DNA of 64,000 nucleotides from assembly GCF_022508225.1 (NCBI RefSeq), contig NZ_JAETXJ010000002.1, forward strand, positions 310,001 through 374,000. Reading direction: 5' to 3'. Below, piece after piece: positions 16,915-21,756 of this stretch. This DNA is from Desulfovibrio sp. UIB00. Lineage in GTDB: Bacteria > Desulfobacterota > Desulfovibrionia > Desulfovibrionales > Desulfovibrionaceae. The notes beneath the pieces are model-generated. The model searched no databases, was not told the DNA's origin, and saw only the letters and a list, made by a program, of their open reading frames with translations. Made by a program: the position numbers and the translations under genes. Numbering within the stretch: the first letter of the stretch is position 1; the number at the start of each line of letters is the position of its first letter.

Positions 16915-17517
16915 TTACTTGTTGCCGGTAGCGCCGGACTGCACGGCGTTGTCTGTGGCGCCAGTCGCGCCCATGCCAGCCATGCCGGGGCAGTTGCCGG
17001 GGTTCATCATGCCGTTACCCATCATGCCATGCCCCATGCCGTGCCCGCCCATGCGGTGTCCCATGCCCCGGCCCATGCCGTGGCCAGCCATGAAGGGAAT
17101 GCCCTTGTCAGACATCTGCTTGAGCATTTCGGCCTTGGCGCTGTAAAGCTTAGCGTCGATTTCGCGCAGATCCTTCTGGGCGGCCTTGACGCGGGCGTCG
17201 TCGGGCTTGGCGCCAGCGGCGGCAAGGTTGTTCAGTTCAGCCATCTTGGAAAAATGCTGTTGCATGGTGGGCTGTGTTTTTTCAACAAAGCTCTGGTGAA
17301 TCTGCTGCATGGTTTCCATCTGCTCGCTGGACAATCCCATGCCAGGGCCCATGCCGTAACCCATGCCGGGGCCCATACCCATGCCCATGCCTGTACCGGG
17401 GCCCATGCCTGCGGGGCCGTGTCCGTCGCCGTTCCGGGCGGAGGCAATGCCCGAAAGGCCGAGGAAGATGGCAAGGGTAAGGGCCGCGCCGCTGGTAACG
17501 ATCTTGGAGGTCTTCAT
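16915..17517 (-). CDS. ZraP-like periplasmic metal-binding protein
   Basis: 200 residues with a Sec signal peptide (about 1-27, cut near SASA-RNG). The mature protein opens with a Gly/Met-rich stretch (about 36-62), continues with the LTXXQ-like helical hairpin core of the ZraP/CpxP superfamily (LSSEQMETMQQIHQSFVE, then the Lys/Gln-rich second helix) and ends in a His/Met/Gly-rich tail (about 148-176). E. coli ZraP is a zinc-binding periplasmic chaperone that dampens ZraSR; length and layout agree, though the tail is longer and Met-heavy, suggesting soft metals such as copper as well. It is the last gene of the operon controlled from 18122-18136 and faces the ZraSR-like pair. Confidence 0.88.
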   Translation of the reverse strand: MKTSKIVTSGAALTLAIFLGLSGIASARNGDGHGPAGMGPGTGMGMGMGPGMGYGMGPGMGLSSEQMETMQQIHQSFVEKTQPTMQQHFSKMAELNNLAAAGAKPDDARVKAAQKDLREIDAKLYSAKAEMLKQMSDKGIPFMAGHGMGRGMGHRMGGHGMGHGMMGNGMMNPGNCPGMAGMGATGATDNAVQSGATGNK

Positions 17518-17590: not shown

Positions 17591-17764
17591 TTATCGCCCG
17601 TAGCCATGCCCGTGGCCGTGGGGGCCGTGCGAGCCGGATTGACCGTTGCCGCACCAGGGGGAGCTGATCTGGGTATCCGCCGTATTGGCGGCAGAGGCGT
17701 TTACGGCAAAGGCCAGCACCAGGGCCAGGGAGGCGAAAATCAGGGTAAGCTTGAGAGATTTCAT
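17591..17764 (-). CDS. small secreted His/Gly-rich peptide
   Basis: 57 residues: a clear signal peptide (MKSLKLTLIFASLALVLAFA, cleavage after about 25) and a mature part of about 32 residues ending in GSHGPHGHGHGYGR, with one Cys in SSPWCGNG. AAGGAG lies seven bases before the ATG at 17764. I know no named family. It sits between the SHOCT gene and the ZraP-like gene with short gaps, so it belongs to the same metal-stress operon. The His-rich tail suggests binding of zinc, nickel or copper in the periplasm. Too short for most gene finders. Confidence 0.8.
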   Translation of the reverse strand: MKSLKLTLIFASLALVLAFAVNASAANTADTQISSPWCGNGQSGSHGPHGHGHGYGR

Positions 17765-17805
17765 GAATATTCTCCTTTATATCGGCCTGCTGAATGCAGA
17801 GCCGT

Positions 17806-18030
17806 TTAGATGGATTTTTTCAGTTTTTCGTATTCCTCAAGAGTGATTTCTCCAGAGGCCAACCGCCTTTTAAGAATCGCCATGGAATCTGTATAATCCA
17901 TGTTTCTTCTCTGCGACGGGAATATTCTGCTGATAAAAGCGACCGCAAGGGAAATAATCAGTATCATGAATATGAGGTGCGTCATGCCATTTCCCCATCC
18001 CATTACGCTTCCTATATCGCAGCCATACAT
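17806..18030 (-). CDS. small membrane protein with SHOCT domain
   Basis: 74 residues: one hydrophobic helix (about 14-34, MTHLIFMILIISLAVAFIS) and a C-terminal SHOCT motif (AILKRRLASGEITLEEYEKL), a short oligomerisation module typical of small membrane proteins next to metal-resistance genes. The ATG at 18030 follows GAGG by eight bases; the open frame extends 22 codons upstream without a site. First gene of the operon started by the sigma-54 promoter at 18122-18136, followed by the His-rich peptide and the ZraP-like gene. Role unknown; likely an accessory of the envelope response. Confidence 0.83.
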   Translation of the reverse strand: MYGCDIGSVMGWGNGMTHLIFMILIISLAVAFISRIFPSQRRNMDYTDSMAILKRRLASGEITLEEYEKLKKSI

Positions 18031-18121: not shown

Positions 18122-18136
18122 GCAAAGGCCGTGCCA
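18122..18136 (-). promoter_or_regulatory. sigma-54 (-24/-12) promoter of the metal-stress operon
   Basis: On the minus strand TGGCACGGCCTTTGC matches the consensus TGGCACGNNNNTTGC at every specified base. The predicted start is near 18110, about 80 bases before the SHOCT ATG. The divergent regulator at 20395-21756 is a sigma-54 activator with GAFTGA, so the promoter and activator types agree. Confidence 0.9.
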
Positions 18137-18226
18137 AGATGAGTAAAGCACTGTAACTATATAAATTTATTGTATTAACTTGAATTGATAAATCCCCAGC
18201 GTTCTCTGTCTGGATTGATGTTGCCC

Positions 18227-18294
18227 ATTTTTTACTCAGTTTTCTGGTCAGCTATCCAATTTTTACCGGGGGGCTTGCGGGGTGAGTAAAAAAT
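18227..18294. promoter_or_regulatory. probable upstream activator sites (12-bp inverted pair)
   Basis: ATTTTTTACTCA (18227-18238) and TGAGTAAAAAAT (18283-18294) are exact reverse complements 44 bases apart. A shorter copy, TGAGTAAA, lies at 18140-18147 beside the -24 box. Placed about 100-170 bases upstream of the sigma-54 promoter, they have the position and symmetry expected for an NtrC-type enhancer, and they also lie just upstream of the kinase start, allowing autoregulation. Confidence 0.65.
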
Positions 18295-18330: not shown

Positions 18331-20322
18331 ATGATCCGTTTTCGCCCATCTCTCTCCCAGCGCTTGTCGCGCATGGGCCTTTCACCCTGGATGCTGCTTG
18401 GGGCAGCCCTTATTCTCGGCCTGACACTGGTGGGGCTTTCCGTGCGCAGCAACCAGCGCGAGCGGGCCTTTATGGTGCACAACCTTACGGACAGGGCCGA
18501 GGCGCTCATCTGGGCGCTTGAAGCCGGAACCCGTACGGGCCTGCGCCTCAGCCCCGGCACAGTGCTTGGCCTGCGCCCGCTGCTCAGCGAAACGGCCCGC
18601 CAACCCGGCATTCTCTATATGGCTGTTACCGATGTGAGCGGGGCCATACTTGCCCAGAGCGGCGACAGCTCGCCGATTCCCGGCGTGCCGGATGACGCCG
18701 CTCCGGAATTTTCTCCCACTCCCATGATGGTGCAGCCTCAGGATATCCCCCCCCTTGCAGATGTTTCAGACCGGCCCATGTGGCGGGTGCGCAATGTGGA
18801 TGGAAAAGAAGTTTTTGAGGTTTTTCGGGTATTTGCGCCCCTGAGTCGTTCACATGGGCAACAGCACATGGGTGGGCAACAGCATATGGGCGGCGGGCAC
18901 GGCTCCCACGGCATGGGCATGATGGGCCGCATGCTGGGGCGTTCCCCTGATATTGACGGGCCTGACCCCAATGATGTGTTTGACAATCCGCCGCCACCCC
19001 CTCCCGCACGAGGAGGGTTTGGTGGCCGTCCCGGTCCTGAGGCCCCCCGGCAGGTGGTGGGCGTGGCTCTGGTGGGCTTTGACGCGCGCCCCTTTGAGGA
19101 TGCTCTGGCGCAGGACGCGCGCAACAACCTGCTCTCTGCCGCGCTTGCGGCCGCATTGGGGTTGGCTGGTTTTGTGTCCCTGTTCTGGATGCATAACAAC
19201 CGTCGCTGGCGGCGTATTGTGCGCGATCAGCAAGTCATGGCCGCAGAAGTTGTGGCAAACCTCCCCCTTGGCCTTGTGATCAGTGATCCCAACGGGCGTA
19301 TTGCCATGATCAACGACACGGCTCTGTCCATGTTCGGCAAGCAGCGCGCAGAAATATTTCCTTCTGGCACGGAGGATTCTCAGGGTGGTGCAGACAAGCC
19401 CGGCAGGGCTGCGCGGGCACGGCGGCTGCGCAGTCTGCCCGGTCTGGAGTGGGAAGCCCTGGTGGGTAAACTGGTTAAGGGATCGCGCATTTTGGAGCAG
19501 GAAACAACGCTCGCCGTGCCGGGAATCAAGCCGTTGACCATCAGCCTTGGCGGCGCGGCCATGCGCAACGAGGACGGCGCTTTTTTGGGCAACGTGTTTG
19601 TGTTGCGCGACATTACGGAAATGAAGCGCCTTCAGGCTGACGCCCAGCGCAATGACCGGCTGGCGGCCCTTGGGCATCTGGCGGCGGGTGTGGCCCACGA
19701 AATCCGCAATCCCCTGAGCACCATCAAGGGCGTGGCCCTGTATATCGCCAAGCGTATGCCCATGGGTGGACGCGAGGAAGAAGCCGCCCAACGCATGATT
19801 GACGAAGTGGAACGGCTGGACCGCGTGGTTTCCGAGTTGCTGGAGTTTGCGCGTCCCGGTTCGTTTGAAACCGTGCAGGCTGATCTTGGCGAGGTCATCG
19901 GGCGGGCGCTGCGGCTTGCCGAGGCAGACCTCAAGGCCAAGAACATTACCGTGGTTTTTGAAATGGAACCGGGCTTCCCGCTGGTGCGCATCAGCACGGA
20001 GCGGCTCACTCAGGCTCTGCTGAATCTTTTTCTCAACGCGGTTCAGGCCATGGATCACGGCGGCACCCTGCGCGTGAGTACGCGCGCGCTGCCCGATGGC
20101 ATGTTCAGCATCACCGTGGCCGACACGGGGCCGGGCATTCCGGCAGAGATTCAGGCTTCCATTTTTACGCCCTATTTTACCACAAAATCGTCGGGAACCG
20201 GCCTTGGGCTTGCCATTGTCTATCAGATTGCCGAGGGGCACGGCGGGCGCGTCAGCGTTGGCAACGCGCCGGGGCATGGGGCGGAATTTACGCTCACACT
20301 GCCTGTAAACGGCAAGGGTTAG
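18331..20322 (+). CDS. ZraS-like sensor histidine kinase
   Basis: 663-residue membrane kinase. Helix 1 (about 19-39) and helix 2 (about 267-287) frame a large periplasmic sensor of about 225 residues. That loop contains a Met/His/Gly-rich insert (about 175-205) with a tandem GQQHMG repeat, followed by a Pro/Gly-rich stretch; both are absent from the short E. coli ZraS sensor. The cytoplasmic part has a PAS domain (about 300-430), a HisKA domain with phospho-His 456 in AAGVAHEIRNPLSTIKG, and the ATPase boxes NAVQAM, DTGPGIP and SGTGLGLAIV. It precedes the response regulator by 72 bases. The insert resembles the effector proteins encoded divergently, suggesting direct metal sensing. Confidence 0.92.
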   Translation: MIRFRPSLSQRLSRMGLSPWMLLGAALILGLTLVGLSVRSNQRERAFMVHNLTDRAEALIWALEAGTRTGLRLSPGTVLGLRPLLSETARQPGILYMAVTDVSGAILAQSGDSSPIPGVPDDAAPEFSPTPMMVQPQDIPPLADVSDRPMWRVRNVDGKEVFEVFRVFAPLSRSHGQQHMGGQQHMGGGHGSHGMGMMGRMLGRSPDIDGPDPNDVFDNPPPPPPARGGFGGRPGPEAPRQVVGVALVGFDARPFEDALAQDARNNLLSAALAAALGLAGFVSLFWMHNNRRWRRIVRDQQVMAAEVVANLPLGLVISDPNGRIAMINDTALSMFGKQRAEIFPSGTEDSQGGADKPGRAARARRLRSLPGLEWEALVGKLVKGSRILEQETTLAVPGIKPLTISLGGAAMRNEDGAFLGNVFVLRDITEMKRLQADAQRNDRLAALGHLAAGVAHEIRNPLSTIKGVALYIAKRMPMGGREEEAAQRMIDEVERLDRVVSELLEFARPGSFETVQADLGEVIGRALRLAEADLKAKNITVVFEMEPGFPLVRISTERLTQALLNLFLNAVQAMDHGGTLRVSTRALPDGMFSITVADTGPGIPAEIQASIFTPYFTTKSSGTGLGLAIVYQIAEGHGGRVSVGNAPGHGAEFTLTLPVNGKG

Positions 20323-20394
20323 GCCGTTCCACACCGTTGCGTTCTGCCCGTGGTACAGACGAAACCGTATACTGACCAGTTCAAGGATAGTTTT

Positions 20395-21756
20395 ATGACT
20401 GCAAATCCCGCCATACAGCTGCTGGTGGTGGATGACGACCTCAATCACCGCGAAATGCTGCGCGCCCTGCTTGAAGAGTGGGGCTACGCGCCCACCGGGG
20501 CCTCCAGCGGCGAGGAAGCCCTGGAATTGTGCCGTGAGCGCCCTTTTGACCTCATTCTCATGGACGTGCGCATGGGGGGCATGAGCGGCATAGAAGCCAC
20601 TCGAGCCGTCAAGGCATACAATCCCGCCATTCCCATTTTGATCATGACGGCCTACTCGGACGTCTCCAGCGCCGTGGAAGCGCTTAAGGCCGGGGCTTAC
20701 GACTATCTCACCAAACCCCTGGCCTTTGACGCTCTCAAGCTTGCCCTTGAGCGTGCGCTGGATCATGCCAGCCTCCGGCATGAGGTGCGGACTCTGCGCC
20801 ACGAACTGGCAGCAGGTCTGGACGCCCGCAACGTCATAGGGCAAAGCCAGGCCATGCGGCAGGTGCTGGACCTTGTTTCGGCCATTGCGCCCTCGGAGGC
20901 TACAGTGCTTGTGACTGGCGAATCCGGCACCGGCAAGGAAGTTGTGGCCAAGCTTATCCACGCCAACAGCAATCGCCGCTCTGGCCCTTATGTGGCCGTG
21001 AACTGCGCGGCCCTGACGGAAACCTTGCTTGAATCAGAGCTTTTCGGCCACGAAAAAGGCGCGTTCACCGGGGCGGAAAAACGCCGCGAGGGGCGGTTTC
21101 AGGCAGCGGACAAAGGCACGATCTTTCTGGACGAGATTGGCGAAATTCCGCTTTCCATGCAGGTAAAGCTGTTGCGCGTCATTCAGGAACGCGAGTTGCA
21201 GCGCGTGGGCGGCGATCAGACCGTGCGGGTGGATGTGCGCATTCTGGCGGCCACCAACAAGGACCTGGCGCGCGAGGTGGAAGAAGGGCGCTTTCGTCAG
21301 GATCTGTATTACCGGCTTAACGTGGTGGCCTTGCAGTTGCCGCCTTTGCGCGAGCGCGGTGAGGATATTCCTCTGCTTGCCATGCATTTTATGAAACTTT
21401 TTGCCGAGCGCAATGGCAAGACCGTCAAGGGATTTACGCCTGGGGCCATGGATCGCCTGCTGAAGCACAACTGGCCCGGCAATGTGCGCGAGCTGGAAAA
21501 TGCCGTGGAGCGGGCTGTGGTGCTGCTGGTGGGCGAGTATATCAGTGAGCGCGAGCTGCCGCCCACCATTGGCGGGCAGGAGGCGGAGGTTTCGGCGGCG
21601 TCGCGGCTGGATTTTGCCAATATGACGCTTGAGGAGATTGAGCGCATGGCGGTTATGGATACCTTGGCGCAGGTTGGCGGCAACAAGAGCGAGGCTGCGC
21701 GGCGTTTGGGGATTAATCGCAAGACGTTGCTGTCAAAGCTTGGGGACGGAAAGTAG
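20395..21756 (+). CDS. ZraR-like sigma-54-dependent response regulator
   Basis: 453 residues: receiver domain (1-120) with phospho-acceptor Asp 57 (LILMDVRMGG) and the Lys of YLTKP; AAA+ domain (about 145-370) with Walker A GESGTGKE, the sigma-54 contact loop GAFTGA, Walker B GTIFLDEIGE and the arginine-finger region; C-terminal Fis-type HTH (SEAARRLGINRKTLLSKL). It activates sigma-54 RNA polymerase from upstream sites, most likely the repeats at 18227-18294. The ATG at 20395 has AAGGA eight bases upstream; a GTG at 20350 lacks a site. Second gene of the two-component operon; no terminator was seen after it. Confidence 0.95.
   Translation: MTANPAIQLLVVDDDLNHREMLRALLEEWGYAPTGASSGEEALELCRERPFDLILMDVRMGGMSGIEATRAVKAYNPAIPILIMTAYSDVSSAVEALKAGAYDYLTKPLAFDALKLALERALDHASLRHEVRTLRHELAAGLDARNVIGQSQAMRQVLDLVSAIAPSEATVLVTGESGTGKEVVAKLIHANSNRRSGPYVAVNCAALTETLLESELFGHEKGAFTGAEKRREGRFQAADKGTIFLDEIGEIPLSMQVKLLRVIQERELQRVGGDQTVRVDVRILAATNKDLAREVEEGRFRQDLYYRLNVVALQLPPLRERGEDIPLLAMHFMKLFAERNGKTVKGFTPGAMDRLLKHNWPGNVRELENAVERAVVLLVGEYISERELPPTIGGQEAEVSAASRLDFANMTLEEIERMAVMDTLAQVGGNKSEAARRLGINRKTLLSKLGDGK

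Follow-up and report, generated by a model that had tools for sequence, protein, structure and literature searches.

The frame of 57 codons that lies between two genes of a metal-stress operon in Desulfovibrio raises two questions: does it encode a protein, and what could such a protein do beside the chaperone ZraP? The window, by which we mean the whole 64-kb stretch of DNA that was analysed, belongs to a Desulfovibrio-type genome of 3.46 Mb (G000). When genome contigs were searched for close relatives with back-translated patterns, one MAG only, of D. desulfuricans, came up.

The gene and its operon

The gene is on the minus strand (17591..17764; ATG at 17764, stop at 17591) and encodes MKSLKLTLIFASLALVLAFAVNASAANTADTQISSPWCGNGQSGSHGPHGHGHGYGR, a small secreted peptide of 57 aa. 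An AAGGAG Shine-Dalgarno sequence is present at 17772..17777 (minus strand), 7 nt ahead of the ATG, as an earlier sequence-only reading of this DNA had claimed. Residues 1 to about 25 (MKSLKLTLIFASLALVLAFAVNASA) make up the signal region and ANTADTQISSPWCGNGQSGSHGPHGHGHGYGR the mature part, with the predicted cut site read by eye. The approximately 32 mature residues include 8 Gly, 4 His, 1 Cys and 1 Trp, which agrees with the single Cys and the repeated His-Gly pattern of that reading; the mature peptide is Gly-rich more than it is His-rich. Export is predicted from the signal-peptide-like N-terminal helix. The structure model of the peptide consists of this helix and a coil, and beyond residue 30 the pLDDT is about 50, so that the mature part is predicted to be disordered, as the ZraP tails are.

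The frame was said to lie between two genes of a metal operon, and this proved correct. On one side is the first gene of the operon (17806..18030, minus strand), which encodes a SHOCT-domain protein of 74 aa with one predicted membrane helix (MYGCDIGSVMGWG...; Pfam SHOCT E 9.9e-8, alignment A2). On the other is the gene for ZraP, the periplasmic zinc-resistance-associated chaperone, whose disordered tails are rich in Gly and Met (16915..17517, minus strand; Pfam Metal_resist). This ZraP matches the ZraP model under the model's cut-off; by sequence it matches Salmonella ZraP (3LAY) with E 1.3e-12, and the top six hits of a search with its predicted fold are 3LAY chains (best E 2.2e-3, TM 0.93 by target length). 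On the plus strand, domain models match a ZraS-like sensor kinase (18331..20322) and a ZraR-like sigma-54 activator (20350..21756). The kinase carries a Gly/His/Met-rich extracytoplasmic insert (SHGQQHMGGQQHMGGGHGSHGMGMMG; 18849-18933, plus strand), which resembles the peptide and the tails of ZraP in character.

A sigma-54 promoter with the -24/-12 core TTGGCACG-N4-TTGC is located at 18122..18137 (minus strand) and recurs in all 13 species in which we find the peptide. Candidate ZraR enhancer boxes lie in the divergent intergenic region at 18229..18292, with no strand assigned (18229-18238, TTTTTACTCA; 18260-18267; 18283-18292, TGAGTAAAAA), about 100 nt upstream of the sigma-54 core, and the same or similar boxes occur with equal spacing in the 13 species. 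In D. vulgaris, the regulator DVU3381 has been assigned DVU3384 as a target besides its own operon, under envelope stress response (PMC4641369), and the motif of this regulator has been validated by EMSA (PMC3333781). An Rfam search gave no match.

Confident orthologs of the peptide were found in 13 Desulfovibrio genomes by profile searches over the family and the class. The gene order is the same in 13 of 13, namely upstream boxes, sigma-54 promoter, SHOCT membrane protein, peptide and ZraP, with zraSR divergent; the peptide gene thus has a ZraP-type placement in every species, and we infer that it is controlled in the same way. A purine-rich site precedes the start in each of them. For the whole peptide dN/dS is 0.24 in clade A (7 sequences) and 0.35 in clade B (6 sequences), with 0.22 and 0.32, respectively, when the mature part is taken by itself; the changes in clade A fall mostly at third codon positions. 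Read in its two alternative frames, this DNA gives 0.69-2.1 against 0.24-0.35 in the peptide frame; purifying selection acts in the peptide frame only. The sequence-only reading had made its case depend on conservation of the frame in relatives and on a translation signal, and both are there in all 13 species.

Within the 64 kb, the peptide frame is the sole one on either strand to pass a strict small-frame filter (ATG, strong Shine-Dalgarno sequence, 38-125 aa, signal-like N-terminus). Windows shuffled at third order yield about 1.5 such signal-like frames per 64 kb, which is what an open frame arising by chance would draw on, yet none with a Gly+His fraction of at least 0.34 was seen in 100 shuffles. 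Given the 13 species, the dN/dS values and the conserved start and ribosome site, we rule out a chance frame at the level of sequence and see practically no probability left for it. The 57-codon frame is, on this evidence from genomes, confirmed as a real, conserved protein-coding gene.

In clade B (L029 1687-1938, L031, L033, L034, L036, L038) the gap between the peptide gene and zraP is about 250 nt long and contains a nearly invariant block of approximately 80-90 nt (A6 columns 72-162), in one copy per genome and absent from the clade of the window. Hairpins are predicted in the block; it shows no covariation and no Rfam match. It could be a regulatory RNA element lying between peptide gene and zraP.

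Same-slot peptides and their relation to ZraP

What the sequence-only reading missed is that this slot holds a larger set of peptides, of which the present one is a single member; some of them clearly derive from the 5′ part of zraP. Four other genera of Desulfovibrionaceae have gaps between the SHOCT gene and zraP that hold one to three small secreted Gly-rich peptides. Gaps were located with SHOCT and ZraP profiles, and at least one small secreted peptide was present in 27 of the 34 inspected (the second G108 copy counted), a figure that is not a family-wide frequency because loci were chosen by best profile score. As a control on the loose gap finder, antisense frames were counted; these occurred in 14 of 33 gaps, with 20 antisense against 38 sense frames. 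Since this control is above zero, the raw number of peptides is not used as proof, and the case is carried by position, ribosome sites, repeated end motifs and conservation.

Many of the peptides from other genera end in Cys-(0-2 residues)-Trp. Three peptides in G181 end in ...GYGCGCGWGW, ...YGCGCGGWGW and ...YGWGCGGWGW, those of G284 in ...SYGYPCW and ...WGWGCGWW, and those of G160 in ...YGYGCSWW and ...GGWGCGWY. The G180 peptide reads ...SSSWHGGGGWHGGGHGGGCCGW, also given as ...TTTSSSWHGGGGWHGGGHGGGCCGW, and that of G085/G080 reads ...GYHGGHGGHGGCNW, also given as ...GTGAGYHGGHGGHGGCNW. Lipoprotein versions exist in G026/G104 and some others. These same-slot peptides are rich in Gly, Tyr, Trp and Cys with few or no His, so that His is not constant across the wider set, and the position of the single Cys is His in other copies. 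G108 has a second, strongly diverged unit consisting of SHOCT gene, peptide (...AQPWHGGHGSHGGCGW), zraP and divergent zraSR. Its peptide (L042) is one of two weaker profile matches, and real; the other, L039, is the N-terminal copy of a ZraP-like gene. Two further weak matches, L040 and L041, were discarded as orthologs, as their frames contain stops.

At two loci, identity with ZraP indicates how such peptides can arise. One peptide at L111 (G181) is 97% identical to the first 30 residues of the adjacent ZraP, and that at L039 (G257) is 78% identical to ZraP over 32 residues; in G186, moreover, the ZraP profile matches two small peptides. In three genera, g36, g34 and g51, and also in the second operon of G108, ZraP itself ends in ...CW (genes at L111, L112, L113, L114 and L118, and L044 5811-6347), and the peptides of these operons end in C-x(0-2)-W. 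As signal peptide and Cys-Trp ends are shared, such peptides look like a ZraP signal region joined directly to a tail of the ZraP type, the chaperone core having dropped out. Judged from these two loci, the wider set is shown to have arisen at least partly through partial duplication of zraP. The window peptide does not align with its own ZraP, and for it a duplication origin is therefore an analogy only.

The peptide resembles ZraP in being encoded in the same operon behind a sigma-54/ZraR-type promoter, in its predicted Sec export and in its Gly-rich disordered tail with potential metal ligands, and some peptides of the set have a ZraP signal peptide or a Cys-Trp end. It differs in that the helical-hairpin chaperone core (Metal_resist, a CpxP/Spy-like hairpin with an LTxEQ-type motif) is wholly missing from it, and it has no Pfam match. 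Likewise, the SHOCT small membrane proteins are its operon partners and have an N-terminus that also contains Cys, Trp and Gly, and those outside the family carry Gly/Tyr/Cys segments themselves, but the peptide has neither a SHOCT domain nor a retained membrane anchor. A likeness to the NCBIfam WGxxGxxG family (NF041742) is weak (E 0.02); we rejected membership, as the match covers the signal peptide only and reaches 15 of 35 bits, far under the cut-off.

The peptides that were tested match nothing in Pfam or NCBIfam. This bears out the proposal of a new small family, at least for a real, exported-looking peptide within Desulfovibrio, the only genus in which the A1 alignment model gives confident matches. 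Its hallmark, a short, apparently Sec-exported Gly-rich peptide between the SHOCT gene and zraP, is seen in the 13 species and in the 27 of 34 gaps. Low-complexity tails are no proof of homology between peptides from different genera, and the wider class is an undescribed, possibly polyphyletic one.

The arrangement has its borders. The order SHOCT gene, peptide and zraP occurred at none of 20 SHOCT loci outside the family, and ZraP-then-SHOCT operons of genera g45 and g49 have no peptide. At L109, L115 and L116 a small lipoprotein (e.g. MRALLVIGILGVALLAVACSPHRGGYHGGQRGGYCGYW...) is encoded ahead of the SHOCT gene, with no peptide after it. In a few cases within the same genus (L124, L126-L128), solo zraP genes with sigma-54 promoters are found without SHOCT gene and peptide; the N-terminus of these ZraP proteins has a Cys-containing PGYGCGG-type stretch that is absent where a peptide exists.

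What the peptide could do beside ZraP

We suggest that ZraR and sigma-54 would switch on one operon for SHOCT membrane protein, peptide and ZraP, as the sites and the D. vulgaris ortholog imply. The peptide would be exported by Sec and lose its signal peptide; what would remain in the periplasm is an unfolded, Gly-based tail of some 32 residues that bears Cys, Trp and His at intervals. There it could act like a ZraP tail that has been set free, as a short chain that binds soft metals and supplements ZraP in envelope or metal stress; it may soak up metal, or load or occupy the sites used by the ZraP tails. E. coli ZraP reportedly has a higher affinity for Cu(II) than for Zn(II) (cited in PMC8836040). 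The insert in ZraS means that three parts of the system (peptide, ZraP and ZraS) carry similar low-complexity, ligand-type segments. We give a probability of roughly 0.45 to the reading of the peptide as an accessory tail that binds metal alongside ZraP. Metal binding and buffering by it, including the periplasmic metal buffer of the sequence-only reading, are a guess from composition; that reading as a whole is partly supported, namely in its small exported peptide of a new family.

The buffer idea is weakened most by the turnover of the ligands and by the response of zraP to copper. The Cys of the otherwise conserved WCGNG is Arg (WRGNG) in L038 (G123), the ortholog L037 (G097) has one His, and in other genera the peptides often abound in Tyr and Trp and nearly lack His. 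In D. alaskensis G20, Cu(II) strongly down-regulates zraP (PMC8836040), a misfit with a copper-induced buffer.

The main rival to a free metal-binding tail is a real exported peptide with a regulatory or structural task, one that would dock on ZraP or on the Gly/His/Met-rich loop of ZraS to adjust signalling or the assembly of the chaperone, without buffering metal in bulk. This partner role would suit the strict linkage to the SHOCT gene, zraP and divergent zraSR, the similar stretch in ZraS and the Cys-Trp ends common to peptide and ZraP, and also the WxG motif, in which Trp and Gly are kept where Cys is lost (WRGNG in G123; WHGG in the second G108 operon and in G180). The His and Cys of the peptide are, however, what metal ligands need, and we consider a role directed at ZraP or ZraS rather unlikely, if worth keeping in mind.

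The predicted disorder, the aromatic Gly-rich tails in other genera and production always together with ZraP could also fit a decoy or folding client, that is, a sticky unfolded peptide that titrates or reports the chaperone capacity of ZraP. At particular W, C/H and G positions, purifying selection goes beyond what a generic sticky client would need, which makes this improbable. A short, secreted and fast-evolving peptide might likewise be an antibacterial or cell-to-cell one whose location in the operon is incidental, but with no immunity or export genes nearby and with linkage to ZraP in several genera this is most unlikely.

Bufferins and oxazolins are Sec-exported Cys peptides that are modified by MNIO enzymes and linked to copper, and bufferin precursors carry Sec signal peptides (PMC12452194). 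A modified metal-chelating peptide of this kind would likewise be small, Sec-exported and Cys-containing with a link to metal stress, as the window peptide appears to be. The modifying enzyme is absent from operon and genome, however: no MNIO gene (DUF692/PF05114) was found in any of 15 genomes, whereas the same search was positive in two control genomes, which rules out a bufferin or RiPP identity. In place of a conserved modified Cys the peptide has one Cys, lost in one species (Arg in G123), and it matches neither DUF2282 nor any other Pfam model. We regard the chance of a bufferin-like peptide as negligible.

Meaning for the Zra system

The ZraP/ZraSR system is already known, while the peptide component is new; our literature search found nothing that joins ZraP with SHOCT proteins or with a small His-rich periplasmic peptide in the Zra operon. 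Neither the sensing nor the handling of metal by ZraP and ZraSR is settled, and the targets to which the system has been traced in Desulfovibrio are no more than a few "hypothetical" genes. The fast-changing tails amount to a natural experiment on the key residues, in which W and G are kept and C is exchanged for H or R, and the Cys to Arg change in the complete genome of G123 is a natural test of the importance of Cys. We tentatively raise, as a doubtful possibility, that across the Desulfovibrionaceae the chaperone operon repeatedly releases its own tails as separate genes, that is, as exported Gly/Cys/Trp/His peptides with no core, whose end motif recurs in ZraP and which would serve the chaperone system as free metal-binding or docking tails. 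If the peptides do belong to the Zra system, the accepted picture of three genes (ZraP, ZraS and ZraR) would miss parts that have been hidden by short-gene cut-offs.
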